DNA from: Gloeocapsopsis dulcis
Lineage (GTDB): Bacteria; Cyanobacteriota; Cyanobacteriia; Cyanobacteriales; Chroococcidiopsidaceae
Reading direction: 5' to 3'
DNA: 64,000 nt
Assembly (NCBI RefSeq): GCF_032163395.1
Contig: NZ_CP119968.1
Coordinates: 5,172,001 to 5,236,000, forward strand
A program made the position numbers and the translations under genes. Below the pieces are notes generated by a model. That model was not told the origin of the DNA, did no database searches, and saw nothing but the letters and a program-made list of their open reading frames with translations. This document shows, piece after piece, positions 6,537 through 46,661 of the stretch (position 1 is its first letter; each line of letters opens with the position of its first letter).

Positions 6537-6716
6537 TAAGTAATAACATTGACACTCTCGCCGCCAAACTTACGTTATAAAAACAACTTTTAGACTTTCT
6601 GAAGCAGTTTTTACAAATAGTTTAAAATTGGAATCTTCTGAAGATATGGATAATAGCTCAATTTTTGGATAGATTGAAATTGTTAATTCTTTCAAATAAA
6701 CTAGAGACTTCTAAAG

Positions 6717-7331: not shown

Positions 7332-7346
7332 GTTTGAGCGTGCCCA

Positions 7347-17718: not shown

Positions 17719-17726
17719 GCTTTCTA
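17719..17726 (+). repeat. Left target-site duplication of the 28-kb island
   Basis: GCTTTCTA abuts the left end of IS1 copy A. The same eight bases abut the right end of IS1 copy B at 45779-45786. Eight bases is within the IS1-family range. Confidence 0.8.
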
Positions 17727-18498
17727 GGTAGTGCTAAACAAGTAATGATGCATTGTAGTAATGCACAAAATACCAAATAGCCCCAATATGATTCTCCAAT
17801 GACCTAGAAAAGGACAAGGTTTTTCGCACCAATCGAGACACCCGTTGCCTGAGCGTGTTGTTGAAGCGCTCAACATAACTGGTCTTGCCCGTCTCTTTGC
17901 CGACTGCACGATGCCGCTTATTCGGTAAAACTGCTGCGTAGGCTGCCCAAAAATCGGTGTAAGCAACTGCACATTGACGGTAGACTGGGGGCAAAGAATT
18001 CCACAATTGACGAGCTGCCGTTTCGTCTCGTGTACCAATGTAAACGCCAACAATTTCACGCGTGTCTGCATCCAGAGCTAACCAAACCCATTGTTTGTTG
18101 CCTTTGTGGTCTACAAATGACCACAACTCATCACACTGAATCGTTAGCACCCCTTTTTTGGGTGTCACCTGCACTTGCCGAGGCACCTGAGCATATTTCT
18201 GATTAACGTAGCTTTGCAGCCATTGCTCAGACACCTGCGCTACACGAGCAATTCCAGCAAGGGAAATCCGCTCCAACAGCAATCGGTCAATCCACTCCCG
18301 TGTGTTTTGGTCTATCACCTTCTTTTGGGGATGTTCTACGAATTGCCGACCGCATTCATGACATTTGAACCGTTGTTTACCGTTGTGAATTCGACCATTT
18401 TTGACTGTTTGAGAAGATGCACAAATGGGGCAGGCAGGCATGAGAGAAAAAAATCAGCAAGAGTTCTACTTCTCCATCATTACATCTTGAGCACTACC
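17727..18498 (-). mobile_element. IS1-family insertion sequence, copy A
   Basis: A 772-bp element with terminal inverted repeats starting GGTAGTGCT at both ends, about 20 of 24 bases matching. It encodes one uninterrupted transposase. By eye it is the same sequence as copy B at 45007-45778. Its right inner flank reads TAAGTTTC. Confidence 0.92.
17734..18441 (-). CDS. IS1-family transposase (single-frame type)
   Basis: A 235-residue DDE transposase. The N-terminus is a zinc ribbon (CPICASSQ and KCHECGRQF), followed by a helix-turn-helix (ISLAGIARVAQVSEQWLQSY). The catalytic core shows Asp in IQCDELWSFV, Asp in AYTDFWAAY and Glu in SYVERFNNTLRQR. Unlike classical IS1, which needs a -1 frameshift between insA and insB, the two parts are fused in one frame here, as in many cyanobacterial and archaeal IS1 members. 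No lesion is visible and the element may be active. Confidence 0.93.
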   Translation of the reverse strand: MPACPICASSQTVKNGRIHNGKQRFKCHECGRQFVEHPQKKVIDQNTREWIDRLLLERISLAGIARVAQVSEQWLQSYVNQKYAQVPRQVQVTPKKGVLTIQCDELWSFVDHKGNKQWVWLALDADTREIVGVYIGTRDETAARQLWNSLPPVYRQCAVAYTDFWAAYAAVLPNKRHRAVGKETGKTSYVERFNNTLRQRVSRLVRKTLSFSRSLENHIGAIWYFVHYYNASLLV

Positions 18499-18967: not shown

Positions 18968-19263
18968 AAAGCTTAGAGATTGCATTTTTTGTCTAAAACT
19001 GACTGCACCGAAGTAATACTTCAATCCACAGTACTACTTCAAACAACATTGTGCTTTTGATCGTCAAAATTTGTCGATATGGATTTATTCAGGAATAGTG
19101 TATAAGCTCCATTCGCACGAATCTATGTCTGCGATCGCCTTTTGACCTATTTCTCGCACCATGCGTCTGGAAATACTAGTCCATTACAAATTCCCTAAAT
19201 TTATTAAAGTTTTAGAGATAAAGCTTCTCACAATTAGAACTTTTTTTCAGTGCAGATTGTTGC

Positions 19264-21423: not shown

Positions 21424-21693
21424 CTAGTTGTCCGGTGGTAGCGAAAGTTGGGGTAAAAAAAATACTCTTCACAGAGTCTCCTGAATAGATATTAGTGATT
21501 GGCTCAGTATTATGTTGTCTTTGATTAGGAAAAAGCGTTGCGCGATCGCTTTGACGATTTAGCAATTTCCTATTGAAAACTTTATCTAAATCGTGACTGC
21601 GATATACAACGCTCGCAATTGGTTGAATTAAGAGATGAGTCATGAACTACAGTTAAGTGATTTAACTGTCTTTGTCTTAAAGCTAGATCTAGA

Positions 21694-21712
21694 TAGTGGA
21701 AAAGTCGGGGAG
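21694..21712 (-). promoter_or_regulatory. Island motif copy 1
   Basis: CTCCCCGACTTTTCCACTA on the minus strand, one mismatch from the consensus CTCCACGASTTTTCCACTA. It points toward the region of decayed mscS genes (21643 and below). It also lies 235 bp upstream of the plus-strand gene at 21947, for which it would be inverted. Confidence 0.7.
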
Positions 21713-22611: not shown

Positions 22612-23418
22612 TTACGGTTCCGATCTCTGACGAGATAGCAATTGAATCTCTTGACGCAAAGCCTTAACTTCAGCGTGCAGTGCTTCTATAGATTTAGCCC
22701 CTGCTATTTCCGCTTCGTCGTCTTCGGCATCGCGACCGAGAAAAAATGTCGCGATCGCTGCTGTCAAGTAACCAAATACGGCAAAAGCATACAACGCTAG
22801 GAAAAAGCAAAGCACTCGCCCTTCTGGAGTCTGGGGCCAGTATTCCGAACCCATTGTGGTCATAAGCATTGCCGTCCACCAGAGCGCCGTACCGTAGTCA
22901 TTTAGACCGCGCCTATCAGGAGTATTGCTCTCAAAGGTATACATTCCTGCTGCTCCGACTAGGGTAATAACCAGCGTTGTTGCTACAACGTAGCCGAAGC
23001 CGCGACGACCTAAACTAGCACCGATCGCCCGCATCCCCCGATTCGTGCGTGTAATTACACGTAGTAACCTGATGCCACGAGCAACCTGTGCAGTACTTAG
23101 TACCCGTAAAACACGGACAAACCTAAACAGACGTAGTGCTGGTAGTGGTAGGGCAATAACTGTTAGCCAGTTGCGTCGAAGATAGACAAGCTTATATGGA
23201 GCTAGGGTAAATTCAAGGATGAAGTCTAGAATGAAGATTATCCAAATAACTGTGCCAAAGACTTGAAGTAAGGGGTTCAAGCCCCAGATTAGCTCAACAA
23301 TAAACAGCGCCAACCACGCAAAGCCCAGCACGAGCATTGGTGTTTCTAGCCAGTCTTCTAGCTGTTGCAAAACTTCCTGTCGTTCTCGATTGAGTACCTG
23401 TTTTTCTGAGGATTTCAT
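22612..23418 (-). CDS. Voltage-gated-type ion transporter with atypical filter
   Basis: A 268-residue six-helix channel subunit. The S4 segment is Arg-rich (LRLFRFVRVLRVLSTAQVAR, then RLLRVITRTNRGMRAIG). A pore helix and a final helix follow (ALYAFAVFGYLTAAIATFF), and the C-terminus is a coiled coil (IEALHAEVKALRQEIQLLSR). The selectivity-filter position reads MTTMGSEYWP instead of the potassium-channel TVGYG, so ion selectivity is uncertain. An island motif copy lies upstream at 23627-23645. A 54-codon open frame encoding a one-helix peptide sits in between. Inner-membrane location is clear; the physiological role is inferred only as osmotic or ionic stress. Confidence 0.85.
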   Translation of the reverse strand: MKSSEKQVLNRERQEVLQQLEDWLETPMLVLGFAWLALFIVELIWGLNPLLQVFGTVIWIIFILDFILEFTLAPYKLVYLRRNWLTVIALPLPALRLFRFVRVLRVLSTAQVARGIRLLRVITRTNRGMRAIGASLGRRGFGYVVATTLVITLVGAAGMYTFESNTPDRRGLNDYGTALWWTAMLMTTMGSEYWPQTPEGRVLCFFLALYAFAVFGYLTAAIATFFLGRDAEDDEAEIAGAKSIEALHAEVKALRQEIQLLSRQRSEP

Positions 23419-23611: not shown

Positions 23612-23626
23612 TTAGTTAAAACAAAA

Positions 23627-23645
23627 AAGTGGAAAACTAGGGAAT
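23627..23645 (-). promoter_or_regulatory. Island motif copy 2
   Basis: ATTCCCTAGTTTTCCACTT on the minus strand: the TTTTCCACT half is intact and the distal half is degenerate. It points toward the ion-channel gene (start 23418). Confidence 0.55.
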
Positions 23646-27192: not shown

Positions 27193-27695
27193 TTAAAGTA
27201 TGTCACGTTTAGAACGACTTCTTCTTTCTCTTAGCCGTTCTTGATAAGTTGTAAAACTGTGGTCTTGTAGATTGTAGAAGTAAGGCTCAAGAGCATAAGT
27301 GTAGGTCGTCGCACCAATAGCTGCATTTGTAATGGGCGTCGTCATGTAAGGACGATAAACTCCTCTAACTCGCTCTTCGTAATCATTGTCTATCGCTAAA
27401 TCTTCACTGAAGTCTGGCAAGTCTTCTATCTGCTGTTTGGTTAACTGCGGAGCATATACTCTTTTATCTTCATAATCGATATTAGCCATGCTCACTGGCA
27501 GGAACACGTTCTTACCAAGCACCCATAAACCTCAACGATGAAATAACGAAAATTTCCATCCTCATCGACCATGATGTTCTTTACAGAACCAACTTTGTCA
27601 TCCTGGGCGTACACATCAAAGCTTTTGATGTCATAGCCATCAAAAATGTCGTTTTGATAGTCGGGATAATATTCATCAAGTTTGTAAAGAGCCAT
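27193..27695 (-). pseudogene. PRC-barrel domain protein, frameshifted
   Basis: From the ATG at 27695, preceded by GGAG, the frame reads MALYKLDEYYPDYQNDIFDG...DEDGNFRYFIVEV. A shift near 27530 is then needed to continue as GLWVLGKNVFLPVSMANIDY and on to the stop at 27193. The combined product would be about 165 residues and is colinear with the intact PRC-barrel protein at 32723-33163. That protein reads FRYLIIDIGFWVLGKEVLLP across the same point. A 1- or 4-base deletion explains the break. PRC-barrels in cyanobacteria are stress-induced and of unknown mechanism. An island motif lies 70 bp upstream of the start. Confidence 0.75.
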
Positions 27696-27764
27696 GTTTT
27701 TTCTCCAAAATCCTTGACAACTATCAGTCAAATTCAATTGCTATAGCTTGAACATAGAGAAAGA

Positions 27765-27783
27765 TAGTGGAAAAGTCGTGGAG
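27765..27783 (-). promoter_or_regulatory. Island motif copy 3
   Basis: CTCCACGACTTTTCCACTA on the minus strand, an exact consensus match. It is 70 bp upstream of the PRC-barrel start at 27695. Twelve bases after CCACTA comes TTCAAGCTATAGC, identical in sequence and spacing to the copy at 43226. Confidence 0.85.
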
Positions 27784-32722: not shown

Positions 32723-33163
32723 TTATGATGGTTCATTTAATGTTGCAGTAGTATTAAGTAGCATTGGGTCGATAGGTGCTACTGGTGCTGGTTGTATTGA
32801 AGGATTACTATTTGCAGGTTGATAAGCATTATTGACACGAACTTCGTAGTCGCGATCAAGCTTCAAATCGTCGTTAAATTCAGGTAAATTTTTTGCTTGC
32901 TTTTTTGTTAAATCTGCAACATCTACTCTTCTTTCTGTCGTCCTAACTTGCGCTATTTCTATTGGTAGTAAAACTTCTTTTCCTAAAACCCAAAAGCCGA
33001 TATCAATAATCAAGTATCGAAACTTTTTCGTTTCCTCATCCACTAAAATTTCTTTGACTATACCAACTTTTTCATCTTTATTTGTATATATAGTAAATCC
33101 AATAATGCTACTACCTTCCGCTGCCATGTGCGGATAAACATCTGTCAGTTTCACTAAAGCCAT
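32723..33163 (-). CDS. PRC-barrel domain protein
   Basis: A 146-residue protein with a PRC-barrel of about 75 residues (LVKLTDVYPHMAAEGSSIIG to GFWVLGKEVLLPIEIAQVRT), then LTKKQAKNLPEFNDDLKLDR and a Pro-rich tail. PRC-barrels bind partners or small ligands in contexts from RNA maturation to photosynthesis. The cyanobacterial short type, with the KLxxVYP start, is associated with stress or desiccation islands. The function of this one is unknown. It is the intact paralogue of the frameshifted gene at 27193. An island motif lies 261 bp upstream. Confidence 0.87.
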   Translation of the reverse strand: MALVKLTDVYPHMAAEGSSIIGFTIYTNKDEKVGIVKEILVDEETKKFRYLIIDIGFWVLGKEVLLPIEIAQVRTTERRVDVADLTKKQAKNLPEFNDDLKLDRDYEVRVNNAYQPANSNPSIQPAPVAPIDPMLLNTTATLNEPS

Positions 33164-33423
33164 GTTCTTACCTTCCTTTTTTTCTCTATCCAGGTAGTGC
33201 CCATTGGCGTGATGAGAGACTAAACGTAGAAACTATCATTAACCTTCCCTCAACATGAAAAAGCCTGCTATAGAGATTATTGTTTGTAATTCGGGGTGAT
33301 TATTTTTGGAATTAAAGAGACAAGTTTGAGTACTCAATTTGGGAGCGCGAATGTAGATTCAATTGTTAAAACTAGGGTAGAATTCAATTACTGTGAACAA
33401 ACTATTCTTAGGCTAAATTTAAA

Positions 33424-33442
33424 TAGTGGAAAACTCGTGGAA
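33424..33442 (-). promoter_or_regulatory. Island motif copy 4
   Basis: TTCCACGAGTTTTCCACTA on the minus strand, differing from the consensus only in its first base. It points toward the PRC-barrel gene at 32723-33163. The surrounding 372 bp (33164-33535) contain no other feature. Confidence 0.8.
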
Positions 33443-34199: not shown

Positions 34200-35366
34200 T
34201 TATCTGGAAGCAGTTGGTAACTGTTCTGGTTGCAAAGTTAGTTCTTGAGGCAAGCCATTACGGTTGACTGTAATTTGTAATGTCTTACCTAAATCTGTTG
34301 CTTCTACAGAGTCTTGTACTTGGTCAGCATTTTGAATTTCTACTCCATTGATTTGAGTAATAATGTCACCTGGACGTAGACCAGCACGGGCTGCTGGCGA
34401 GTTGGGAGCAACTTCGACTATTAAAACTCCCTGTTCTCGTTCGACTTTAAAACCAAGGTTACTCTGATTAATTTCCTGTTGGATTTCCGGTGTCAGTTCA
34501 ATCAGTCGCACGCCTATGTATGGGTGTTCGACTCGACCTGTTGTAATTAACTGATTTGCAATTCTTTGTGCAGTATTAACCGGAATGGCAAAGCCTAAAC
34601 CTTGCGCTCCACCAATAATAGCAGTGTTCACTCCTACAACTTCGCCTTGAGCATTGAGCAAAGGTCCACCAGAATTACCAGGATTAATTGCTGTATCAGT
34701 TTGCAGAAAATCAAGTCGCTTGTCGTTAACACCGATATCTGAGCCACTTCGTCCTATGGCGCTGATAATTCCTTGAGTCACGGTATTATTTAGACCTAGA
34801 GGATTACCAATTGCGATCGCCCATTGTCCGACAACAATATTGTCAGAATCAGCTAGCTCAACTACAGGTAAGTTTGCCCCCTCGACATCAATAACTGCTA
34901 CATCTGTTACTGGATCTGCACCTAAAACTTTTCCAGCAAAACGCCGCCCATCTCTTAACACAACTGATACTTCATCGGCATCTTCTACTACATGGGCATT
35001 AGTGAGAATGTGACCATCTTGGCTAATAATAAATCCGGAACCAATACCTTGTTGAACCCGCTGTTCTGGTGGAAACAGTTCTTCACCAAAAAATCGCTCA
35101 ATTAGCGGGTTACTAGCAGCAGGTACTTCAACTGTACGGGTAGCATTAATTCTCACAACTGCTGATCCTACTTCTTGGACAACCTCAGTAACAAAGTTGG
35201 CATTGTTCTGCAAATTAGCTACTGGTTGAGTAGGTAAAGGTTGGACTTGGGTATCTCTTCCTAAAGAGTCGCATCCAGCACTACCAATTATGAGTATTCC
35301 TAAATATAATGCTGGTTGTTTGGAAATTTGCTTGATTGTCTCCCCACGCAATTTTTTCAACTCCAT
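34200..35366 (-). CDS. HtrA/Deg family serine protease (HhoA/HhoB type)
   Basis: A 388-residue trypsin-like periplasmic protease with one PDZ domain. The catalytic triad appears as TNAHVV (His, near residue 120), DVAVIDV (Asp, near 150) and GNSGGPLL (Ser, near 230). The PDZ region spans about 285-380 (VAPNSPAARAGLRPGDIITQ). The N-terminal hydrophobic segment ends in IGSAGC, a good lipobox, so this member seems to be a lipoprotein. HhoA/HhoB/HtrA proteins degrade damaged proteins at the cell envelope during heat and light stress. Because three paralogues exist in most cyanobacteria I do not pick a symbol. A motif copy lies 85 bp upstream. Confidence 0.92.
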   Translation of the reverse strand: MELKKLRGETIKQISKQPALYLGILIIGSAGCDSLGRDTQVQPLPTQPVANLQNNANFVTEVVQEVGSAVVRINATRTVEVPAASNPLIERFFGEELFPPEQRVQQGIGSGFIISQDGHILTNAHVVEDADEVSVVLRDGRRFAGKVLGADPVTDVAVIDVEGANLPVVELADSDNIVVGQWAIAIGNPLGLNNTVTQGIISAIGRSGSDIGVNDKRLDFLQTDTAINPGNSGGPLLNAQGEVVGVNTAIIGGAQGLGFAIPVNTAQRIANQLITTGRVEHPYIGVRLIELTPEIQQEINQSNLGFKVEREQGVLIVEVAPNSPAARAGLRPGDIITQINGVEIQNADQVQDSVEATDLGKTLQITVNRNGLPQELTLQPEQLPTASR

Positions 35367-35450
35367 AACTGAAAGCCTACTGGTTCTGAAAAGCTTTAAC
35401 TAACTCTAGAACTACTAAGGCAGTGCTAACTTGATAACTTTAGACCGCAA

Positions 35451-35469
35451 TAGTGGAGAATTCGTGGAG
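35451..35469 (-). promoter_or_regulatory. Island motif copy 5
   Basis: CTCCACGAATTCTCCACTA on the minus strand, 85 bp upstream of the htrA-type gene. Both TCCAC half-sites are intact with 11-bp period. The rest of the gap (35470-35712) shows nothing I can name. Confidence 0.85.
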
Positions 35470-36119: not shown

Positions 36120-37063
36120 ATTTCTAAAAAAAAGATTAACTGAAGGGCAGGAGTACGCTAGTTAGACCAGGATAGGTTAGTTGTGAATTCAAAGTTGGAC
36201 GATGGTTCTCTCCCCGCAAACTCGCCAGTTTTATCGAGCTAAAGAACGTGCTGCCAAGCGCTATAGCAGTGATTTAACAGATCAAGAATGGGAAGTGATT
36301 CGCCCCCTGCTGCCCTCTCGTTCTCAAGGTCGAGGTCGCAAACAACAGGTCGATGAACGAGAGATCCTTAATGGTATCTTCTACCAACTTCGCAATGGTT
36401 GTATCTGGAGTGATTTGCCCAAAGACCTGCCTGCTTGGCAGACGGTGTACAAGTATTTTCGGCGTTGGCAACGCAAGGGGGTATGGCAGCAGATCCATGA
36501 CCAACTACGGCAATCAGTCCGGGGTGCTGCTGGAAGAAATCCTCATGCTAGTGCAGGTTGTATCGACAGTCAAACCGTCAAAACGACGGAAAAAAGGGGA
36601 GGTCTACGGCTTCGACGGTGGCAAATTAGTGAAAGGACGCAAGCGCTTTATCCTAGTGGACACGTTGGGACTGCTGATCTCAGTACTGGTAATCAATGCC
36701 AATTGCTCAGAACAAAAAGGGGGGCGTTTGTCGTGCATGAAATGGCTCAAGCAGACGCACAGACACTGCAATTGGTCTGGGTGGATCAGGGCTATCAAGG
36801 GGAGAACTTTGCGCGTGTGATTGAACAATTGTGTGGTGCGAAAGTCGAGGTAGTCAGGCGCTCTGAAGCAGGATTCGTTGTCCTACCGAAGCGGTGGGTT
36901 GTAGAGCGAACTTTTGGTTGGCTCAATCAGAATCGCCGTTTGAGCAAGGATTATGAACTGTTACCTGAAGTGAGTGAGGCAATGATTCAGGGAGCCATGA
37001 TCCGATTGATGCTGCAACGTTTGGGGGAACAGTATGAAGCTACTTCATCTTTTATTTAGAAAT
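36120..37063 (+). mobile_element. IS5-family insertion sequence
   Basis: A 944-bp element. The left end ATTTCTAAAAAAAAGAT (36120-36136) is the inverted repeat of the right end ATCTTTTATTTAGAAAT (37047-37063), 16 of 17 positions matching. It contains one transposase gene with two compensating frame changes. The flanks show no convincing target duplication longer than 2-3 bases, as is common in this family. It sits immediately upstream of the WGxxGxxG gene at 35818. Confidence 0.8.
36202..37059 (+). pseudogene. IS5-family transposase with two compensating frameshifts
   Basis: The N-terminal part (SDLTDQEWEVIRPLLP, then EILNGIFYQLRNGCIWSDLP, then CIDSQTVKTTEKR with the first catalytic Asp) and the C-terminal part (LVWVDQGYQGENFARVIEQL with the second Asp; VVERTFGWLNQNRRLSKDYE with the Glu) are in one frame. 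The stretch between, about 36597-36720, reads as family sequence only in another frame (EVYGFDGGKLVKGRKRFILV, then DTLGLLISVLVINANCSEQK). The changes lie at GAAAAAAGGGG and at CAAAAAGGGGGG. The homopolymers suggest slippage mutations or, less likely, recoding. The main frame is open but gives a wrong centre, so activity is doubtful. Confidence 0.8.
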
Positions 37064-37197: not shown

Positions 37198-37446
37198 CTA
37201 TCTTCTTACTTCAGGATCGCGATAAGCTGTGGGTTCGGAACGCTTTTTCCCTGCTAGACCTGCTAGACCTGCTAAGCCAATTAATCCCAACCAGCCCCAA
37301 TCAAAATCATCATCTTCATAAATTTCTTCTGCTTCCACTTCAGGTGTAGTTACTTGAGCATTAGCAGATAGAGTTAATGGTAAAATCGCTGTAGTTGCTG
37401 TTAGCAAGCTTGCTGCAGTGACTTTAAGTAAAAAAGAGTTCTTCAT
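37198..37446 (-). CDS. WGxxGxxG family small secreted protein
   Basis: The third WGxxGxxG member, 82 residues. Here the N-terminus is an ordinary signal peptide (KVTAASLLTATTAILPLTLS, cleavage probably after SANA near residue 30), not a lipobox. The mature part is acidic (VEAEEIYEDDDFDWGW), followed by LGLIGLAGLAGLAG and a basic end with YRDPEVRR. An exact copy of the island motif lies 306 bp upstream. With the copies at 24214 and 35818 this makes a small family within one mobile block. Function unknown. Confidence 0.8.
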   Translation of the reverse strand: MKNSFLLKVTAASLLTATTAILPLTLSANAQVTTPEVEAEEIYEDDDFDWGWLGLIGLAGLAGLAGKKRSEPTAYRDPEVRR

Positions 37447-37945
37447 AGTTGTTTTCTCGTTGTGAAAATATTACAAAAACTATCTAATAATCTATCACTT
37501 AAATATTTAGTTAGAATCAATCTTCGGCTATAAAATCGAAATTCATATTCCAACTAAAGGTAGACAAATAATATATCTTTCTTGCACTAACTGTAACAAT
37601 TTTTACTTACTTTTATTATCAAATAAGCTTGGAAAATCATAAATGCAGAGAGTTTTCATGCCCTAAAAAAAGACGCTTTCTCAAATCAAACTGTATTTCA
37701 CGAAATGCTGCATTAATTGATTTATACTAACTTTCAAATGATAATTTGAGATAGTGGAAAACTCGTGGAGAAATGATGACTAGTTACTAAAATACGACTA
37801 AAGAGATAGCCAGCTATATCAATAGGAATATAAATATCTTCAGCATTCTTAAAACTCATTGACAACGCATAGGCAACACAATGAGTGCAGGATAAACTCA
37901 AAACTACTTAAAGGCGATCGCTATTAAATTTACAGAGCAGCACTA
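37447..37945. other. 499-bp intergenic region holding a motif copy
   Basis: AT-rich, no open frame of note. It contains the motif copy at 37752-37770. No terminator with a clear T-tract was found between the two minus-strand genes. Confidence 0.5.
37752..37770 (-). promoter_or_regulatory. Island motif copy 6
   Basis: CTCCACGAGTTTTCCACTA on the minus strand, an exact consensus match. It points toward the WGxxGxxG gene at 37198-37446 (306 bp). Confidence 0.85.
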
Positions 37946-38682: not shown

Positions 38683-39051
38683 TTATTTTAAAGCTGTGTT
38701 TACTTGGTCAGCAAGTTTTAGGGGATTAAATGGTTTATTGAGAACACCCTTAACACCCAATTCTCTAAATTTCTGCTCAATAAAGCGCCCCTTAGCTGTC
38801 AGTAGAATGACAGGAATAGCGCTAGTTATTGTACTAGATTGGAGTTTTTTTAAAGTAGTCAGTCCATCCTCATCTGCCATCATTACATCTAAGAGAATTG
38901 CGTCGGGTTGATTATTCTGGGCTAAGTGTAAGCCTTCACGACCCGAGTGAGCAGTTATTACCTGCCATCCGCCCATAATTTCTAGGCAAGTTTGAATCAA
39001 TTGTAGAATATCATCTTCATCATCAATAACTAAGATTCTCTTTCTTGTCAT
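38683..39051 (-). CDS. Single-domain response regulator (CheY-like)
   Basis: A 122-residue receiver with the acidic pair (VIDDEDD, residues 8-14), the phosphoacceptor Asp in AILLDVMMADEDG (near residue 56), the conserved Thr (VILLTAKG) and Lys (GVLNKPFNPLKL). No output domain follows, so it must act through protein contact or a phosphorelay. A strong AGGAGGT ribosome site precedes the ATG at 39051. A 59-residue membrane protein gene ends 21 bp upstream on the same strand, so the two probably form an operon. A motif copy lies further upstream (39478). Confidence 0.9.
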   Translation of the reverse strand: MTRKRILVIDDEDDILQLIQTCLEIMGGWQVITAHSGREGLHLAQNNQPDAILLDVMMADEDGLTTLKKLQSSTITSAIPVILLTAKGRFIEQKFRELGVKGVLNKPFNPLKLADQVNTALK

Positions 39052-39072
39052 TGCGCTTTTCTACCTCCTGAT

Positions 39073-39252
39073 CTAAGTTGTTACCTCAATAAGCGCGAGT
39101 GCGTATTGTTTCTCATATAGTCTTAATTCTTCCTCATTGTCTGTAGATCGAGAAAGATGATAGATGAGCACACCAACTGCGAAAAAAGCAAACAGAAGGG
39201 CAATTGCGATCACTACGCGAATTATGACGTTGCTAGGATGAGGGTTTTGCAT
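39073..39252 (-). CDS. 59-residue single-helix membrane protein
   Basis: From the ATG at 39252 the minus strand encodes MQNPHPSNVIIRVVIAIALL and on to VGVLIYHLSRSTDNEEELRL, ending ALIEVTT at 39073. There is one strongly hydrophobic helix (about residues 9-31) with a charged acidic C-terminal tail. The frame lies 21 bp before the receiver gene, in the same direction, with only short opposing frames across it. It resembles small helix-plus-tail proteins that modulate kinases, but no homology is claimed. The ORF was found by reading the strand directly. It is short, yet its position and composition support it. Confidence 0.55.
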   Translation of the reverse strand: MQNPHPSNVIIRVVIAIALLFAFFAVGVLIYHLSRSTDNEEELRLYEKQYALALIEVTT

Positions 39253-39477
39253 AAATTTTTATTATTTCATGAGACTAATTATTCCAAGTATGACAACCGC
39301 CATCACTATGAATGTTGCCTAGTTGTTAGATTTAGAGTCATACCATAGAGTATTGCTGACTCCAAAGTTAATGTTTAGGTGTAGCAACAGATTTAAGATC
39401 TGACTACCTGTAATGCTGCTAAACTTTAGAAACACGTAAGTATTGAGTATTATTACGTTTCCTAAGATAAGGTGAAA

Positions 39478-39496
39478 AAGTGGAAAAGTCGGGCAG
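39478..39496 (-). promoter_or_regulatory. Island motif copy 7, in the divergent region of regulator genes
   Basis: CTGCCCGACTTTTCCACTT on the minus strand: the proximal half is intact and the distal half has drifted. It points toward the small membrane protein-receiver pair (start 39252). It is also 88 bp upstream, inverted, of the hybrid kinase gene at 39585. The remaining gap from 39253 holds no gene. Confidence 0.65.
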
Positions 39497-39584
39497 GAAA
39501 CGATGAAAGATAAATTACTTAGCTGTCATGATAAACAGTAAACGTATTACGGCAACATAGAAAAGCAAGCCCAAACCCCAGAAG

Positions 39585-41666
39585 ATGCTTAGAAGAATAG
39601 GTTTTCACTATAAGGGCTACAGCGTTGCTGTTATCGCCGTTGCGATCGCTTTTCTCCTAACAAATCTCCTGTGGTTGCTAATTCAGCCTCATCTGTACCC
39701 ACTGTTTCTCGCTGCGGTGATGGTGAGTTCCTGGTACGGTGGCATGAGGTCAGGTTTGTTTGCTATTGGTATGTCTGCTGTACTATGCGAGTATTTCTTT
39801 GTCCCTCCACTTTATACACTGCTACCTAGCCGAGATGGAATTGTTGGGGTAATCCAATTTGTACTAGTAGCAGTACTCATTAGTTACCTCAACACAAGAC
39901 TGCGCTCGACTCAAAAACTAGCCCAACGCAATTATGAGCATCTACGTCAAAGCCAAGAAAGCTTGCGCTACAGCGAAGAACGTTATCGCATTTTAGTAGA
40001 AGGGGTAACAGACTATGCGATCTTTATGCTCGACCCAAATGGTGTTTTTGCTACTTGGAATGCAGGTTCAGAAAGGATGTTAGGCTATCAGGAGGCAGAA
40101 ATTATCGGTCAGCCTTTTGAACGGATTTTTACGCCGGAGGCAATACGGCAAGGCTTACCCAAGCAAGTTTTGCAGACAGCGATCGCAGAGGGTTTTTCAA
40201 GAGAGAATCGCTGGCACATTCGTAAGGATGGTACGCACTTTTGGACTCATTGTATTGTCACCGTGTTACGCGATGAGAGTGGAAATCTGCGGGGCTTTGC
40301 CAAAATTATGCAAGACATCACTCAGCGCAAACTAGCTGAGGAAGAACGGGAACAGTTATTGCTGCGCGAACAAGCTGCCCGCGCCGAAGCAGAAGCCGCC
40401 AACCGTGCCAAGGACGATTTTTTGGCAATAGTCTCGCACGAACTACGTACCCCAATGACGGCAATCATTGGTTGGGCAGGGATGTTGCAAACAGGAATGC
40501 TAGATGAAAGTCGAGCAGTTCTAGCAATGGAGACAATTGAACGCCATGCCAACTTGCAAATGCAACTGATTGAAGATCTACTTGATATTTCCCGCATAGT
40601 CAGAGGAGATATTTCATTAACTTTTGGTAGAGTCGATTTGGTGAGAGTTATTGTCGCCGCAATCGAAGTTGTGCAACCAGCCGCTAATGAGAAAGCAATT
40701 GATTTAGAGTTTGTGCAGGAGTCGGGAGCAACCAGCGATCGCGAAAATGTTCTACCTTTCCTTGTATCTTCTGCTTCCCCTGTCTTAGTCTGGGGTGACT
40801 CAGAACGCATGCAACAAGTGGTATGGAACTTACTTTCCAATGCGATTAAGTTTACACCTGAAAGAGGAAAGGTAACAGTTAGACTGTCAATTGTTCGTGG
40901 TTCGTCATTAACGAATAATAGCAATCAACAATCAACTATCAACAACTATGCTCAAATCCAAGTCAGCGACACAGGCATAGGTATCAGTCCTAATTTTCTC
41001 CCCTATGTTTTCGATCGCTTCCGTCAAGCGGATAGCACCAGCGCCAGAACGAATAAAGGGTTGGGTTTGGGTTTAGCGATCGCGCGTCATTTAATCGAAT
41101 TGCACAGCGGCACTATCCAAGTAGATAGCCCAGGTATAGAACAAGGAGCGACATTCACGATTAACTTGCCATATCAAACTACGTTACCACCAGAGGATTT
41201 TATTGTTAGCAATCCAGAGCAGATGCAGTCTTACACAACTGGGAAAAATACTACAATATTAAACAATCCACCAAGGCTTGATGGCTTGCGCGTACTGATT
41301 GTAGATGATGAAGCTGACGCGCGGCAGTGGATTACTGTCGTACTCGAAGAGTCTGGTGCGGAAGTTATTGCCGTTGCTTCCGTCGGTGAGGCACTTGAGG
41401 CACTTGCACAACAAAGACCAGATGTAATGGTTAGTGATATTGGAATGCCAGGAGAAGACGGCTACGCGCTAATAGGTAAAATTAGAGAATTAGAATCGAA
41501 AATGGGTGAAACAATTCCCGCTATAGCATTGACAGGATACGCTAGGGAAGAAGATTACGCAAAGGCTCTAGCAGCAGGTTTTCAGCTCCACGTTGCCAAA
41601 CCAATTAGGGCTGCTGAGTTAATTGCCGTTGTTGCTAGCCTTGCTAGAATGCCTAGAAAATTTTAA
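39585..41666 (+). CDS. Hybrid sensor histidine kinase (DUF4118-PAS-HisKA-HATPase-REC)
   Basis: A 693-residue kinase. Residues 13-110 form a KdpD-like DUF4118 membrane domain with four closely packed helices (SWYGGMRSGLFAIGMSAVLC). A PAS domain follows at about 132-255 (YRILVEGVTDYAIFMLDPNG). HisKA has its phosphoacceptor His in IVSHELRTPM, near residue 285. The HATPase has the N-box LLSNAIKF, DTGIGI and GLGLGLAI. The C-terminal receiver has the Asp in VMVSDIGMPGEDG, near residue 617. The DUF4118 module suggests a membrane-borne cue such as turgor or ions, in line with the channel genes around it. The OmpR-Hpt gene follows 163 bp downstream, completing a His-Asp-His-Asp relay. Confidence 0.93.
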   Translation: MLRRIGFHYKGYSVAVIAVAIAFLLTNLLWLLIQPHLYPLFLAAVMVSSWYGGMRSGLFAIGMSAVLCEYFFVPPLYTLLPSRDGIVGVIQFVLVAVLISYLNTRLRSTQKLAQRNYEHLRQSQESLRYSEERYRILVEGVTDYAIFMLDPNGVFATWNAGSERMLGYQEAEIIGQPFERIFTPEAIRQGLPKQVLQTAIAEGFSRENRWHIRKDGTHFWTHCIVTVLRDESGNLRGFAKIMQDITQRKLAEEEREQLLLREQAARAEAEAANRAKDDFLAIVSHELRTPMTAIIGWAGMLQTGMLDESRAVLAMETIERHANLQMQLIEDLLDISRIVRGDISLTFGRVDLVRVIVAAIEVVQPAANEKAIDLEFVQESGATSDRENVLPFLVSSASPVLVWGDSERMQQVVWNLLSNAIKFTPERGKVTVRLSIVRGSSLTNNSNQQSTINNYAQIQVSDTGIGISPNFLPYVFDRFRQADSTSARTNKGLGLGLAIARHLIELHSGTIQVDSPGIEQGATFTINLPYQTTLPPEDFIVSNPEQMQSYTTGKNTTILNNPPRLDGLRVLIVDDEADARQWITVVLEESGAEVIAVASVGEALEALAQQRPDVMVSDIGMPGEDGYALIGKIRELESKMGETIPAIALTGYAREEDYAKALAAGFQLHVAKPIRAAELIAVVASLARMPRKF

Positions 41667-41829
41667 GTTGCAGCGTTTCGTGGCTTTATTTACTCTTTTA
41701 AGGATTAGCCTATACATCTCGATTCTAGTGTATCCCTTTTGATAGATGTTTTGTGCAGCTAAATCAAAGTTTGATGAGGATTAGAGCGTCTGTTGCCATA
41801 TGTAACTCCTTGCGACGCAAGTACTTGTC

Positions 41830-42903
41830 ATGAAAATTCTCGTGGTTGAGGATGATACTTCGATAGCTCAAGCCATTGCAACAGTGCTTGCGCAACAGCA
41901 GCGTTGTCTAGTTGATATTGCCGCTGACGGTCAAGAAGGTTGGGAACTAGCAACAGCATTCAGCTACGATTTAATTTTGCTTGATGTGATGTTGCCCAAA
42001 ATAGATGGCATGAGTTTGTGTAGGCAACTTAGGCAAAAAGGCGATCAAATACCAATTCTCATACTGACAGCGAAAGACTCTAGCACAGATAAGGTCATAG
42101 GTTTAGATGCTGGTGCAGATGATTATGTCGTCAAACCCTTTGACTTTCCAGAGTTAGTTGCTCGCGTCCGCGCTTTATTACGTCGAGGGGCTTCCACGCT
42201 ACCCCCAGTGCTGCAATGGGGTGACTTGCGCCTCGATCCCAGTAGCTGTGAAGTGACATATGAGCATCAAGTTTTGCATTTAACTCCAAAGGAGTATGCA
42301 CTGTTAGAGTTGTTTCTCCGCGACGCTCGGCATACATTTAGTCGGAGTACGATCGTCGATCGCCTGTGGAATTTGGAAGACCCGCCTCAAGAAGATACGG
42401 TCAAGTCTTACATCAAAAGCTTGCGTCAAAAACTTAAAACCGCAGGTGCGCCTAGTGACTTTATTGAAACTGTTTACGGTCTGGGCTATCGCCTGAACCC
42501 GCTATTGCAAGATTCGCATCCAGAACCAACAGCGTCAGATTTAGACGAGATGCAACAAGAGATTTTATCAGCAGTAGTCAAGTTTAGGGAAGTTTTTACA
42601 GCAGGAATGAGCGATCGCCTAGCGGTGTTAGCGCAAGCAGTAGAAGCTTTATGTTCTGGCACGCTTAGTCATCAGCTGCGATCTCAGGCTATTCGAGAAG
42701 CTCACAAACTCGCAGGTGCTTTAGGTAGTTTTGGTTTCGCTGAAGCTTCGCAATTGGCTCAAGAAATCGAGTCTTTATTGGAGGACAAAACTGATAATAA
42801 CTTCACTCACTGTCTGCGGTTATGTCAACTTCTAAAAGAGTTAGAGGGACAAACAAAGCAAAACCCAGACAAGTTAATTATGGGTAAACTATTTACTAGT
42901 TAA
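41830..42903 (+). CDS. OmpR-family response regulator with C-terminal Hpt domain
   Basis: A 357-residue protein. An N-terminal receiver (Asp in DLILLDVMLPK, near residue 51; Lys in VVKPFDF near 102) is followed by an OmpR-type winged helix at about 128-222 (LTPKEYALLELFLRD, then DTVKSYIKSLRQKLK). A Hpt domain follows at about 245-340, with His near residue 292 in AHKLAGALGSFGFAEASQLA. This fusion places relay phosphotransfer and DNA binding in one protein. It lies 163 bp downstream of the hybrid kinase, same strand. OmpR-type regulators bind tandem half-sites with about 11-bp period, which is what the island motif shows; that link is inference. Confidence 0.92.
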   Translation: MKILVVEDDTSIAQAIATVLAQQQRCLVDIAADGQEGWELATAFSYDLILLDVMLPKIDGMSLCRQLRQKGDQIPILILTAKDSSTDKVIGLDAGADDYVVKPFDFPELVARVRALLRRGASTLPPVLQWGDLRLDPSSCEVTYEHQVLHLTPKEYALLELFLRDARHTFSRSTIVDRLWNLEDPPQEDTVKSYIKSLRQKLKTAGAPSDFIETVYGLGYRLNPLLQDSHPEPTASDLDEMQQEILSAVVKFREVFTAGMSDRLAVLAQAVEALCSGTLSHQLRSQAIREAHKLAGALGSFGFAEASQLAQEIESLLEDKTDNNFTHCLRLCQLLKELEGQTKQNPDKLIMGKLFTS

Positions 42904-43376
42904 CGAATACTATTCGTCTTCTTCCCCTACTACACTATTGACTGCTAAGCTACAGTACGAAAGCCCACAGATTAACTGTGGTGAATGAATATCATTTCAC
43001 TAGCAAAATTCGTTTGGTTTATTAACAAATATACTTGCTGATACTAAGACAATATCAGAACTTTACTTCGTTCAGCACAATAAAATATAACTCTTCTCTT
43101 ATGGAAGTAAATACCATTTTGGAAGGATGACAACGAATTTTCGATTGCTGTTTCTAATCTAAAAATTAATATGTCTTTACTGGCAAGGAATCTGCAAAGC
43201 ATTTTTTTGATAGACGCTTCAATTTCTCTACTAGTTTTCCACTATTAAGGCTTAACTTCAAGCTATAGCTAGTTTATTCAACAACTGATGCTCTAAAAAT
43301 TGAGCCATCAATCTTTAGAGCTTGATTTGGCATTTATAAAAACTTGACTAAACCAAACTTAACGAAAAAGGTAATC
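42904..43376. other. 473-bp intergenic region with a motif copy
   Basis: Upstream region of the SLH-fasciclin gene. It contains motif copy 8 at 43226-43244 and the TTCAAGCTATAGC element (43257-43269), and otherwise no open frame or hairpin of note. Confidence 0.6.
43226..43244 (+). promoter_or_regulatory. Island motif copy 8, plus orientation
   Basis: CTCTACTAGTTTTCCACTA on the plus strand, 132 bp upstream of the SLH-fasciclin start. It is the only copy on this strand and precedes a plus-strand gene, so the orientation rule holds. Twelve bases after CCACTA comes TTCAAGCTATAGC, as at copy 3. Confidence 0.75.
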
Positions 43377-44633
43377 ATGAATAGTTTATTTCGTCGCTCC
43401 TCTTCTTTAAGTGTTGCCTTACTAGCTTTTGGAGTATTAGTTGGTGCTGTAAGTCCAAACACAACTTCTGAATCTGCTTTTGCACAATCTTCTGGAACTC
43501 CGGCTTCTCCATTCCCTGCTCAAGGTGCAGCAACAAACTTTTCTGATGTTGCGGCTAACTATTGGGCGCAACCGTTTATTCAAGCCCTAGCTGCTAGAAA
43601 TATCATCGCTGGTTTTCCTGATGGCACTTTCAAACCAGAACAACCAGTGCAGCGGGCTGAGTTTGCTGCCATGATTCAGAAAGCTTTTAATCAAAATCGC
43701 CTGCGCCAGTTAGAAGGCGCTGGATTTAGAGATGTCCCACCTGACTACTGGGCCGCTGCTGCGATTGAGGAAGCATACGAAACAGGGTTTATGGGAGGCT
43801 TACCTGGGGGAGTTTTTCAGCCAGCGGAAGAAATTACGAAGTTGCAAGCGATCGTTGCTTTAGCAAATGGCTTGAACTTGACTGCTAACAGTTCTCTCCA
43901 AAACATTATCAGTACTTCTTATTTAGATGCTGAAGCAGTTCCAGCTTATGCTACGGATGAAGTCGCAGCAGCAACCCAAGCTAACCTTATTGTCAACTAT
44001 CCAATGGTCAGGCAATTAAATCCGCAACAACCACTGACAAGAGCAGAAGCCGCAGCCCATTTATATCAGGCACTAGTACGACTAGGACAAGTGCAACCTT
44101 TAGCTAGTAATGTAGCAGCTACTCAGTATATTGTGGGTCGTGTTGCTCAGGATGGTCAAACCACTGCAAATACTCAAACTCCCAGTACGGCAGCCTCTAA
44201 CAATTTGGTTGCAGTAGCAGCATCGAATCAATCTTTTTCTACACTGACTTCTTTATTAAAAGCTACAGGGTTAGCAGAAAGTCTGCAAAGACGAGGACCA
44301 TTTACAGTTTTTGCTCCTACAGACGAGGCATTTGCAGCTCTACCTGAAGGGACTTTGGAAAAGTTGCAACGACAAGAAAATAGCGAAGTCCTAATACAAA
44401 TTTTGATGTATCACATCGTTCCTGGGCAACTAAGTGCCAGCGAACTCTCGGCTGGAGAGTTGAAAACGCTTGCTGATAGACCTGTAAATATTCAAGTCGA
44501 TCCAGCTCAAAACCAAATTGCTATCAATGATGCCAGAGTGGTTCAATCAAATATTCAAGCCACCAATGGAATTATCCATGCTGTTAATGAAGTTCTCCTA
44601 CCCCCCAACTTGAACCTGAGCAGCTTGCAGTAG
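43377..44633 (+). CDS. SLH-domain and fasciclin-domain surface protein
   Basis: A 418-residue secreted protein. A signal peptide (SLSVALLAFGVLVGAVSPN, cleavage near residue 37) precedes two clear S-layer homology repeats (FSDVAANYWAQPFIQALAAR and FRDVPPDYWAAAAIEEAYET) and a weaker third one. A Thr/Ser/Gln linker follows, and then a fasciclin domain (VAVAASNQSFSTLTSLLKAT, FTVFAPTDEAFAALPEGTLE, NGIIHAVNEVLLPP). SLH repeats attach to cell-wall polymers and fasciclin domains mediate adhesion. The ATG at 43377, after an AAGG, is chosen over a TTG at 43344. A motif copy lies 132 bp upstream. Confidence 0.9.
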   Translation: MNSLFRRSSSLSVALLAFGVLVGAVSPNTTSESAFAQSSGTPASPFPAQGAATNFSDVAANYWAQPFIQALAARNIIAGFPDGTFKPEQPVQRAEFAAMIQKAFNQNRLRQLEGAGFRDVPPDYWAAAAIEEAYETGFMGGLPGGVFQPAEEITKLQAIVALANGLNLTANSSLQNIISTSYLDAEAVPAYATDEVAAATQANLIVNYPMVRQLNPQQPLTRAEAAAHLYQALVRLGQVQPLASNVAATQYIVGRVAQDGQTTANTQTPSTAASNNLVAVAASNQSFSTLTSLLKATGLAESLQRRGPFTVFAPTDEAFAALPEGTLEKLQRQENSEVLIQILMYHIVPGQLSASELSAGELKTLADRPVNIQVDPAQNQIAINDARVVQSNIQATNGIIHAVNEVLLPPNLNLSSLQ

Positions 44634-44678
44634 TTTAGGTAGTGACATTAGACAAATATAACTTTTTTGGAATTGGTT

Positions 44679-45011
44679 ATGTTACAAACTAGTAGTTTTG
44701 ATGCGATCGCCCACTCGACTAGTATTCATTCAATAGATATGAATATCAGCAATTCGATGGAAAATATGGCAGCAATTCAGACAAATTTTCATAGAGAAGC
44801 TTTGAACTTAAAAATTTTGGATGGAACAAATCTAATTGTAGAAAAACCAGAGGGAAGACAGACAAATAGAGAAAAAATAGATTTAGTAAATCCTCCTGAA
44901 TTTGCAGGGAGTGTCTTATCTGTTTACTTAATAATAGCAGCTGGGGCGTTGATTATTTTTCAGCTCTTATGTAAAAGAGAACAAATCTATACTGCTACTG
45001 ATTTTCGGTAG
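44679..45011 (+). CDS. Hypothetical protein with C-terminal helix, 3' end replaced by IS1
   Basis: From the ATG at 44679 (a TTG at 44667 would add four residues) the frame gives about 110 residues: a polar, Ser/Asn-rich N-terminal two-thirds, then one hydrophobic helix (SVLSVYLIIAAGALIIFQLL) and a short basic tail. The stop codon TAG at 45009-45011 belongs to the inverted repeat of IS1 copy B, so the natural C-terminus is lost or was here by chance. No family recognised. It is the last gene of the island and follows the SLH-fasciclin gene by 45 bp. Confidence 0.5.
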   Translation: MLQTSSFDAIAHSTSIHSIDMNISNSMENMAAIQTNFHREALNLKILDGTNLIVEKPEGRQTNREKIDLVNPPEFAGSVLSVYLIIAAGALIIFQLLCKREQIYTATDFR

Positions 45012-45778
45012 TGCTAAACAAGTAATGATGCATTGTAGTAATGCACAAAATACCAAATAGCCCCAATATGATTCTCCAATGACCTAGAAAAGGACAAGGT
45101 TTTTCGCACCAATCGAGACACCCGTTGCCTGAGCGTGTTGTTGAAGCGCTCAACATAACTGGTCTTGCCCGTCTCTTTGCCGACTGCACGATGCCGCTTA
45201 TTCGGTAAAACTGCTGCGTAGGCTGCCCAAAAATCGGTGTAAGCAACTGCACATTGACGGTAGACTGGGGGCAAAGAATTCCACAATTGACGAGCTGCCG
45301 TTTCGTCTCGTGTACCAATGTAAACGCCAACAATTTCACGCGTGTCTGCATCCAGAGCTAACCAAACCCATTGTTTGTTGCCTTTGTGGTCTACAAATGA
45401 CCACAACTCATCACACTGAATCGTTAGCACCCCTTTTTTGGGTGTCACCTGCACTTGCCGAGGCACCTGAGCATATTTCTGATTAACGTAGCTTTGCAGC
45501 CATTGCTCAGACACCTGCGCTACACGAGCAATTCCAGCAAGGGAAATCCGCTCCAACAGCAATCGGTCAATCCACTCCCGTGTGTTTTGGTCTATCACCT
45601 TCTTTTGGGGATGTTCTACGAATTGCCGACCGCATTCATGACATTTGAACCGTTGTTTACCGTTGTGAATTCGACCATTTTTGACTGTTTGAGAAGATGC
45701 ACAAATGGGGCAGGCAGGCATGAGAGAAAAAAATCAGCAAGAGTTCTACTTCTCCATCATTACATCTTGAGCACTACC
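45007..45778 (-). mobile_element. IS1-family insertion sequence, copy B
   Basis: The second 772-bp copy, same orientation and same terminal repeats as copy A (17727-18498). Outer flank GCTTTCTA, inner flank TGATTTTC. With copy A it bounds the 28-kb island. Confidence 0.92.
45014..45721 (-). CDS. IS1-family transposase (copy B)
   Basis: The 235-residue product is the same, residue for residue, as that of copy A, with zinc ribbon, helix-turn-helix and the DDE residues (CDELWSF, YTDFW, VERFNN) intact. Identity at this level implies recent duplication or a single event that produced both copies. Confidence 0.93.
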   Translation of the reverse strand: MPACPICASSQTVKNGRIHNGKQRFKCHECGRQFVEHPQKKVIDQNTREWIDRLLLERISLAGIARVAQVSEQWLQSYVNQKYAQVPRQVQVTPKKGVLTIQCDELWSFVDHKGNKQWVWLALDADTREIVGVYIGTRDETAARQLWNSLPPVYRQCAVAYTDFWAAYAAVLPNKRHRAVGKETGKTSYVERFNNTLRQRVSRLVRKTLSFSRSLENHIGAIWYFVHYYNASLLV

Positions 45779-46661
45779 GCTTTCTATATACTTTTGGTGT
45801 AGTTGCAGTGTATTTACGAAAGACTTTTGTGAAATGACTTTGGCTTTGAAAGCCGACTTGCTGACAGATTTCTACAATAGTTAGTTCTGGATTAGCCAAG
45901 AGCTTTTTTGCTTGTTCAATTCGACATTGAGTAATATACTGATGCGGTGCAAGTCCTGTAGATTGCTTGAAAAGCGTAGCAAAATAGTGCGGGCTCATTT
46001 GTAGTAAATTGGCAATTTCAGCTAAAGTTATATTTTGTTCGAGATGCTCATTGATGTAGGCGATCGCTTCCCGCAATTTATACTTAGGCAATCCACCTGG
46101 GTAATCTTTAATAACTTGCTGATGTGCTGAATATCTCCGTAATAAATGTACCGATAGTGCTGTCGCCATCGACTCTGCATAAAGTTTACTATCCAATTCG
46201 CTCGATTCAAGTTCGTGCTTAAGTGCTAAGCTCATTTGATAAATTAACGGATCAAATCCCCAAATTTGTGGCACAATTTCTATGTTTTCTGTATCAATTG
46301 ATTCATAAGCAGTCTGCGCAAATTGAGTAGGATCTACTGTCAGTAAAATAAACTCGGCGTTGCCATAAGCTTGAGTTGATAAACTCTGATTTGCTGGACA
46401 AATACCAACATTACCTACAACAAAATCTCTAAGTAAGTGCCCATTAACTCTAAATTCTTTTGCCCCATATCTTAGCCCAATGCTGAGCGTATGATGAGGA
46501 ATGCAATATTCTGGCATTTCGTGCGCGGGTTGACGGTGATACTCTAAATGAATGCCATTCCAGCCAGCGTGATGACTTGAGATTATAGGCGATCGCGGTA
46601 AAATCTGCGCAATGGGATTTTGGTGAGAAGCATCAATTGTTAGCGGTTGTTTTTGTTGCAT
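45774..46661 (-). CDS. AraC family transcriptional regulator, last residues rewritten by IS1
   Basis: A 295-residue regulator with an N-terminal cupin-like effector part and two C-terminal helix-turn-helix units (ITLAEIANLLQMSPHYFATL; LTIVEICQQVGFQSQSHFTK), paralogous to the protein at 11395. The current frame ends Val-Tyr-Arg-Lys-Arg-stop, the last Arg and stop lying in IS1 copy B. In the reconstructed site it would end Val-Tyr-Arg-Lys-Leu-Leu-stop. Loss of the last two residues is probably harmless. ATG at 46661 is preferred over the GTG at 46709. It is divergent from the peroxiredoxin-glutaredoxin gene (168 bp between starts), a likely target. Confidence 0.9.
   Translation of the reverse strand: MQQKQPLTIDASHQNPIAQILPRSPIISSHHAGWNGIHLEYHRQPAHEMPEYCIPHHTLSIGLRYGAKEFRVNGHLLRDFVVGNVGICPANQSLSTQAYGNAEFILLTVDPTQFAQTAYESIDTENIEIVPQIWGFDPLIYQMSLALKHELESSELDSKLYAESMATALSVHLLRRYSAHQQVIKDYPGGLPKYKLREAIAYINEHLEQNITLAEIANLLQMSPHYFATLFKQSTGLAPHQYITQCRIEQAKKLLANPELTIVEICQQVGFQSQSHFTKVFRKYTATTPKVYRKR
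45779..45786 (+). repeat. Right target-site duplication of the 28-kb island
   Basis: GCTTTCTA, identical to 17719-17726, abutting the outer end of IS1 copy B and lying in the last codons of araC. Confidence 0.8.

Follow-up and report, generated by a model that had tools for sequence, protein, structure and literature searches.

The locus described here raises the question of whether a signalling system carried by a mobile block of DNA also reads the promoter motif that recurs along that block. The window, that is, the whole stretch analyzed, consists of 64,000 nucleotides from Gloeocapsopsis dulcis (assembly GCF_032163395.1, contig NZ_CP119968.1, positions 5,172,001 to 5,236,000); the genome is referred to as G000. 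Within 4.2 kb of it lie four genes, encoding a single-domain receiver, a 59-aa small hydrophobic protein, a hybrid sensor kinase and a 357-aa regulator with a receiver, a winged helix and an Hpt domain (Table 1). The open reading frames (ORFs) and Pfam matches bore out the original prediction for these genes and their domains. Judging from the sequence comparisons given below, we consider it very likely that a 28-kb composite-transposon-like insertion, bounded by two IS1-family insertion sequences (IS), carries a self-contained regulon read by the 357-aa regulator.

The motif TCCAC-N6-TCCAC occurs in four exact copies in the window (0.01 expected), a number reached by none of 100 shuffles. At one mismatch 8 copies were counted versus 2.1 expected, and 1 of 100 shuffles reached 8; this excess is modest, so that the case depends on the longer consensus captured by a weight matrix. 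The matrix was built from 78 sites, found in the DNA surrounding the regulator gene and surrounding matches to the pattern in G000 and seven relatives, and in the reversed control 0 of 1,072,256 positions scored 15 bits or more. Its consensus, YTCCACKAKTT-TTCCACTATT, reads as a 7-bp element that recurs after a 4-bp spacer, and the box is better described as an 11-bp direct repeat, TCCACKA-N4-TCCACTA, plus a fixed -10 element. Among the lags tested (6-16), self-similarity was highest at 11 (0.59), in line with the direct repeat of about 11 bp expected from the original prediction. Over 114 sites, pairwise identity was 0.28 in the flanks vs 0.80 in the box; the low flank identity indicates that the sites did not arise through duplication of a single stretch. 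These 114 sites came from 28 regions picked for holding the regulator or a pattern hit, a selection rather than a genome-wide census, and their gene neighbours were taken from simple ORF calls.

The distribution of the motif follows that of the regulator. Among 60 relatives, the regulator was found at 70% identity or more in 8, each with 4-18 pattern hits; the other 52 have 0-2 hits, and the reversed control over all 60 gave 0-3. The search was widened to 388 genomes drawn from the order, in which a carrier was defined by a regulator match at E <= 1e-115. Carriers numbered 14 and were spread across six families. Fourteen of the 388 genomes had at least 4 motif hits and 13 of these were carriers, so the search for genomes with the motif and no orthologue of the regulator did not refute the pairing; conversely, 13 of the 14 carriers had at least 4 hits (Fisher p 3e-22, with genomes treated as independent of kinship). 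Kinase relatives at E < 1e-240 were present in exactly the 14 regulator carriers. Another 23 genomes matched the kinase at E <= 1e-150, and their best matches, except that in G117, skip the first 102-122 residues, where DUF4118 lies. Three or more hits were also seen in the non-carriers G150, G207, G224, G243, G332, and G358. Non-carrier sites were scored in 50 chosen loci at 14 bits or more (53 sites, 7 with the -10), and carrier sites at 18 bits or more. Among the matches listed, Nostoc favosum CHAB5714 (L076) is a carrier, with a regulator 60% identical, one site of 28.8 bits with a -10 and one of 18.6 bits without.

In all 14 carriers a box adjoins the kinase gene and points away from it. 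The next gene is the receiver or a preceding small protein in nine carriers (G000, G001, G002, G014, G006, G060, G174, G353, and G379), and relatives of the 59-aa protein, 53-72 aa in length, are located behind a box in G001, G002, G009, and G014. In G353 the kinase and receiver genes are on one contig with the box between them and the regulator gene is on another; the box is thus kept though the regulator is unlinked, and the pairing of regulator and box outlasts linkage. A motif copy had been predicted between the two divergent units of the window, and one does exist there. It is degenerate (TGCCC-N6-TCCAC) and directed at the receiver/59-aa operon, away from the kinase. No box of at least 18 bits faces the kinase-regulator operon in the window, and the regulator was therefore not seen to control its own operon. 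The claim that the regulator reads the motif is supported by co-occurrence and geometry, without extending to the kinase-regulator promoter; the relay's own target should be the receiver/59-aa operon, as predicted from the direction of the box.

We also compared the DNA-reading part of the regulator. Across residues 120-226, only K192, S193, S197, and L225 are invariant in the 14 orthologues and occur in <35% of 32 paralogue rows, a set that includes L076, itself a carrier; K192, S193, and S197 are present in 16-19% of these rows. In a HMMER alignment T190, S193, and S197 of the regulator fall on T194, V197, and R201 of PhoB, with PhoB numbering fitted to the residues named in PMC3973317. The available text of that paper reports the three PhoB residues as base contacts. 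A distinctive reading helix and a distinctive box thus go together in the carriers, which is a correlation.

The best-surviving alternative is that the box is read by another, unlinked regulator, with the kinase-regulator pair a hitch-hiker in the cluster. The cluster stays together in most carriers, so co-occurrence cannot separate its members, and paralogues of the OmpR family abound, with 34 scored matches in G000. However, the annotated ORFs of the block include no other DNA-binding gene conserved in the regions of other carriers (0 for the helix-turn-helix gene at 18506-19024), the recognition-helix residues differ from those of most paralogues in all carriers, and next to the constant position of a box beside the kinase there are sites far from the cluster in G013, G003, and G006. 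We consider this alternative unlikely. An AraC-type regulator gene at 45774 was also weighed as the box reader. Its position beyond the IS pair, its absence from every carrier region compared, and the location of its homologous DNA in G001, at the empty insertion site described below and apart from that genome's copy of the system, led us to reject it.

The geometry of the sites is that of a promoter. A TAnnnT sequence follows the 19-bp box at one offset in 83 of 94 sites (8 at the best of the other 79 offsets). With divergent genomes included, the count at the fixed offset was 101 of 114, and among sites outside the matrix 18 of 20. The nearest downstream gene is on the strand of the box in 105 of 113 sites, vs 60 of 113 for the upstream neighbour. 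In these predicted promoters the box occupies the position of a -35, the activator-type layout of overlap with the -35 and a -10 downstream. PhoB sites are described as overlapping the -35 (PMC3348028, available text), and Mycobacterium tuberculosis PhoP as a tandem dimer on repeats of 7 bp that are strictly 4 bp apart (PMC4832192, available text). By analogy, the box is probably an activator site of the PhoB type, from which activation would follow. The fixed spacing between box and -10 could also be expected if the box were a -35 element recognized by an alternative sigma factor. The conserved part, however, spans ~22 bp with an 11-bp internal repeat, and its second repeat is separated from the -10 by a 10-bp gap, too close for an ordinary -35; the layout is also that reported for OmpR/PhoB activator sites overlapping the -35 (PMC3348028; PMC4832192). 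On the geometry of box and -10 the alternative-sigma reading was dropped as very unlikely.

The phosphorelay and each of the window's eight boxes lie between two IS1-family copies that delimit the 28-kb block, are 100% identical over 772 bp and lie in direct orientation, with ends GGTAGTGCT...AGCACTACC. Neither copy alone has an exact target duplication of at least 4 bp; only the outer flanks of the pair share the 8-bp sequence GCTTTCTA. The site is unoccupied in a congener, G001, where both flanks are contiguous near 34283 of contig C36 and the target differs from GCTTTCTA at 2 of 8 bases. The regulator of G001 itself is on contig C129, and its boxes are on C129, C1, C74, and C40. Four other genomes (G002, G014, G004, and G010) have the right flank alone in the stretch compared. 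Two flanking IS copies, an outer-only duplication and a relative's unoccupied site, the marks of a composite transposon, were all found here, and the outer-only duplication together with the empty site indicates that the block arrived as an IS-bounded unit. We concluded that the 28-kb segment is, by this comparison of ends and flanks, a composite-transposon-like insertion; it may have entered through transposition of the two IS together, or an IS-carrying circle may have integrated into an IS copy that was already present. The expectation that a mobile block brings sensor, relay, regulator and targets together was thereby supported, by the IS pair, the outer duplication and the empty site as well as by co-occurrence. 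The two IS copies might instead have inserted independently beside an old resident block that is not mobile, as IS1-family elements also occur singly (a third copy, 99.87% identical, is at C1:7752-8523 in G000). But the copies are identical, co-oriented and without duplications of their own, the 8-bp duplication is common to both and the G001 site is unoccupied; moreover, the ORF at 44667-45011 is cut at the IS edge (114 aa vs 163 aa in the G002 relative), and homology with G002 and G014 at the right edge ends at 45005, adjoining the IS. Independent insertion is accordingly highly improbable. An IS4/5-type transposase gene at 36202-37059, between two WGxxGxxG genes, suggests that the block has received a further insertion.

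Phylogenetic comparison gave a conflict between the regulator tree and the alanyl-tRNA synthetase tree, which points to transfer on a larger scale as well. The regulator tree places G002 with G014, a genome from another genus (95/94), and the synthetase tree places it with G001 (98/96). G060 and G353, from different families, have regulators 87% identical and alanyl-tRNA synthetases 76% identical.

The coordinates of the relay genes, boxes, two target genes and block boundaries are collected in Table 1.

Table 1. Features of the IS-bounded block in window coordinates
Feature	Position	Strand	Basis or remark
8-bp target-site duplication GCTTTCTA, left outer copy	17719..17726	.	Exact match to 45779-45786
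IS1-family element, left copy, 772 bp	17727..18498	-	Transposase 17734-18441; DDE_Tnp_IS1; 100% identical to 45007-45778
Regulatory box, 32.1 bits, -10 TAGCTT	21693..21711	-	Weight matrix
Regulatory box, 22.1 bits, upstream of ion-channel gene 22612-23418; without TAnnnT -10	23626..23644	-	Weight matrix
Regulatory box, 33.2 bits, upstream of PRC-barrel-type gene	27764..27782	-	Weight matrix
Regulatory box, 34.3 bits, upstream of PRC-barrel gene 32723-33163	33423..33441	-	Weight matrix
HhoA/HhoB/HtrA-family serine protease (predicted target)	34200..35366	-	NCBIfam NF041521 above cut-off
Regulatory box, 27.9 bits, 84 bp upstream of HtrA-family gene	35450..35468	-	Weight matrix
Regulatory box, 34.3 bits, 305 bp upstream of WGxxGxxG-family gene 37198-37446	37751..37769	-	Weight matrix
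Single-domain receiver	38683..39051	-	Response_reg only (Pfam)
59-aa small hydrophobic protein, operon shared with receiver	39073..39252	-	Hydrophobic by eye
Divergent-region box, 24.3 bits, -10 TATCTT, faces receiver operon	39477..39495	-	Weight matrix
Hybrid sensor kinase DUF4118-PAS-HisKA-HATPase_c-REC	39585..41666	+	Pfam
Regulator REC-Trans_reg_C-Hpt, 357 aa	41830..42903	+	Pfam; PF00072 and PF00486 above cut-off
Regulatory box, 26.8 bits, -10 TAACTT, upstream of SLH-fasciclin gene	43227..43245	+	Weight matrix
SLH-fasciclin surface protein (predicted target)	43344..44633	+	Pfam
IS1-family element, right copy	45007..45778	-	100% identity over 772 bp; orientation as left copy
8-bp target-site duplication GCTTTCTA, right outer copy	45779..45786	.	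Flank comparison; empty site in G001

The original prediction of a complete phosphorelay holds at the level of parts: all four phospho-acceptor domains (HisKA, receiver, Hpt, and receiver) are present with their acceptor residues. The regulator Asp and the Hpt His motif were found in 14/14 carriers, the sequence SHELRTP in all 11 kinases examined (of 14), and the Asp pattern of the kinase receiver in 9 of these 11, the window kinase included. By its receiver and winged helix the regulator is of the OmpR/PhoB family, and its PDB matches include DrrD, MtrA, RegX3, and PhoB. The 59-aa protein has no match in Pfam or NCBIfam. Longer regulator orthologues occur in G174 (625 aa, L227 6152-8029) and G379 (573 aa, L228 2662-4383). 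The former has the receiver, DNA-binding and Hpt domains plus two more receivers (three REC matches in Pfam), the latter, judging by its length, probably has the same arrangement, and the 357-aa form looks like a shortened version of these proteins. A second kinase, 58% identical and near further boxes, is encoded in G013 (C1:4441921-4443948), a possible duplicated input.

The window contains 8 sites of at least 18 bits, all within 21693-43245 and 7 with a -10. The box following the regulator gene has a counterpart just downstream of that gene in the other family-f1 carriers; in G001 the counterpart is at the end of a separate contig. The PRC-barrel-type gene at 27193-27737 seems to be frame-broken in the window genome, as it is split into overlapping ORFs (27492-27737 and 27193-27522, 81 and 109 aa) and is one ORF of 166-167 aa in G001, G002, and G014. 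Three further G000 boxes of at least 18 bits lie outside the IS pair: one at C1 5297978, which precedes an Nramp-like gene some 80 kb rightward, and a pair at 6238-7672, near the contig start (~90 kb off if circular), one of them shortly before the third IS copy.

Across the carriers, a PRC-barrel/DUF2382 gene is the first downstream gene in 12 genomes. An SLH-fasciclin cluster of targets (13 genes in 9 genomes) is a merged one and also contains unrelated small ORFs. Other first-downstream genes are those for HtrA (7), a membrane protein of the serine beta-lactamase family (6) and an ion channel (4), besides the relay operon; M48 peptidase (in G003, G009, and G013), Nramp, HlyD, and rhodopsin genes are putative targets in few genomes. 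This set resembles an envelope stress regulon and suggests envelope or osmotic stress as the signal; osmotic or desiccation stress would fit the channels and surface proteins. A bacteriorhodopsin-family gene of G001 (L177 14143-15069, C74) has a box of 28.3 bits 93 bp upstream, and a light-driven pump may be under the regulator in that genome.

From these data we infer the following circuit. The DUF4118-PAS membrane kinase would sense an envelope or osmotic signal, and phosphate would reach the Hpt and receiver domains of the regulator by way of the kinase's receiver domain, the single-domain receiver, or both. The phosphorylated regulator would bind head-to-tail, as a tandem dimer, at TCCACKA-N4-TCCACTA in place of a -35 element and activate transcription from a sigma70-type -10. 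Putative targets are the HtrA protease, the SLH-fasciclin and PRC-barrel proteins, channels, WGxxGxxG proteins and the receiver/59-aa operon, the last of which would provide feedback on the relay. More broadly, the transposon-borne phosphorelay may move between cyanobacterial families with its cis-regulatory code, control its own relay operon and capture promoters far from the insertion in each recipient, so that a complete stress response could be acquired in one step; we regard the odds on this wider proposal as evenly balanced.

Several observations weigh against the proposal that the block carries a self-contained regulon read by its own regulator. The stimulus is a guess from target families, and another co-inherited regulator encoded elsewhere in the carrier genomes could read the box. 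The Asp of the kinase receiver, sought with a simple pattern, was unmatched in G006 and G146. An extra gene (~295 aa) lies between box and receiver in G003, G009, and G013, where a second box precedes the receiver; other genes intervene in G146; and in G183 a 1606-aa gene is next to the kinase-side box and the receiver is ~7.5 kb off. On the 13.6-kb regulator contig of G353 no box reaches 14 bits. Carrier G174 has 3 pattern hits only, and G224, which lacks the orthologue, has 4 (2 sites examined, both without a -10). The non-carrier G117 has a full-length kinase match (48%), and the non-carriers G012, G008, and G332 each have one site with the right -10; the G012 site, upstream of an SLH-fasciclin gene and 18 kb from HtrA and DUF3611 relatives, is read as a remnant. 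The empty site is known from one genome, G001.

No description of this signalling system was found in open-licence literature, and the present analysis supplies its regulator, likely box and promoter geometry. An entire control circuit that is transferable with its targets poses a question of regulon evolution, which can be tested, as occupied and empty sites exist in one genus. Published work includes gene deletion through conjugation in Chroococcidiopsis thermalis PCC 7203 (PMC4658448).

Parts of the system have known counterparts. RcaC has a related domain order with an Hpt domain, followed by a C-terminal receiver, and its L-box differs in sequence from the window box. The window regulator has one receiver, at the N-terminus, and in Pfam none after the Hpt domain. 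The available text on RcaE-RcaF-RcaC describes RcaE as phosphorylating, by way of RcaF, the regulator RcaC, whose sites of action are L-boxes (PMC8256508). The two systems are alike in having a kinase, a single-domain receiver and a DNA-binding regulator at promoter boxes (PMC8256508, PMC8739951); the window system differs in its DUF4118-PAS hybrid sensor, the missing C-terminal receiver and its predicted envelope targets. In far-red light photoacclimation (FaRLiP), RfpA/B/C are described as controlling a gene cluster (PMC4658448, available text), with rfpA/B/C located within a 21-gene cluster (PMC4390838, available text), and, as in the block, a kinase, a single-domain receiver, a winged-helix activator and the target genes are encoded together in one cluster (PMC4658448). 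FaRLiP differs in its phytochrome sensor, in RfpB with two receivers flanking the DNA-binding domain, in photosynthesis targets and in that the available text mentions no Hpt domain (PMC4658448); a paper on its binding motif was not found in open-licence literature. A role of the block itself in light acclimation, as a module like RcaE/RcaF/RcaC or FaRLiP, is extremely unlikely, for although the kinds of parts are the same (kinase, single-domain receiver, winged-helix regulator) and a rhodopsin gene is boxed in G001, the kinase is DUF4118-PAS with no phytochrome or GAF match in Pfam and the annotated targets include no phycobilisome or photosystem genes.

CpxR is an OmpR-family regulator. In Escherichia coli it is reported to control degP and htpX, with the motif GTAAA-N5-6-GTAAA (PMC9600279, available text). 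The likeness to CpxA-CpxR lies in a spaced direct repeat and in HtrA and M48 peptidase targets (PMC9600279), with no orthology claimed; the box, the sensor and most targets differ, and GTAAA-N5-6-GTAAA is not the window box. With PhoP of M. tuberculosis the system shares 7-bp repeats with a 4-bp spacer (PMC4832192), and with PhoB the overlap with the -35 (PMC3348028) and an alignable recognition helix; the window regulator differs by its added Hpt domain, its box sequence and its phosphorelay input. The block is like IS1-family composite transposons in its identical direct IS copies, outer target duplication and empty site in a relative, and differs in carrying an entire signalling circuit and eight boxes as its cargo. 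Mobile two-component systems that carry targets are known, such as VanRS on Tn1546 and PcoRS/SilRS, with fewer promoters than this block.

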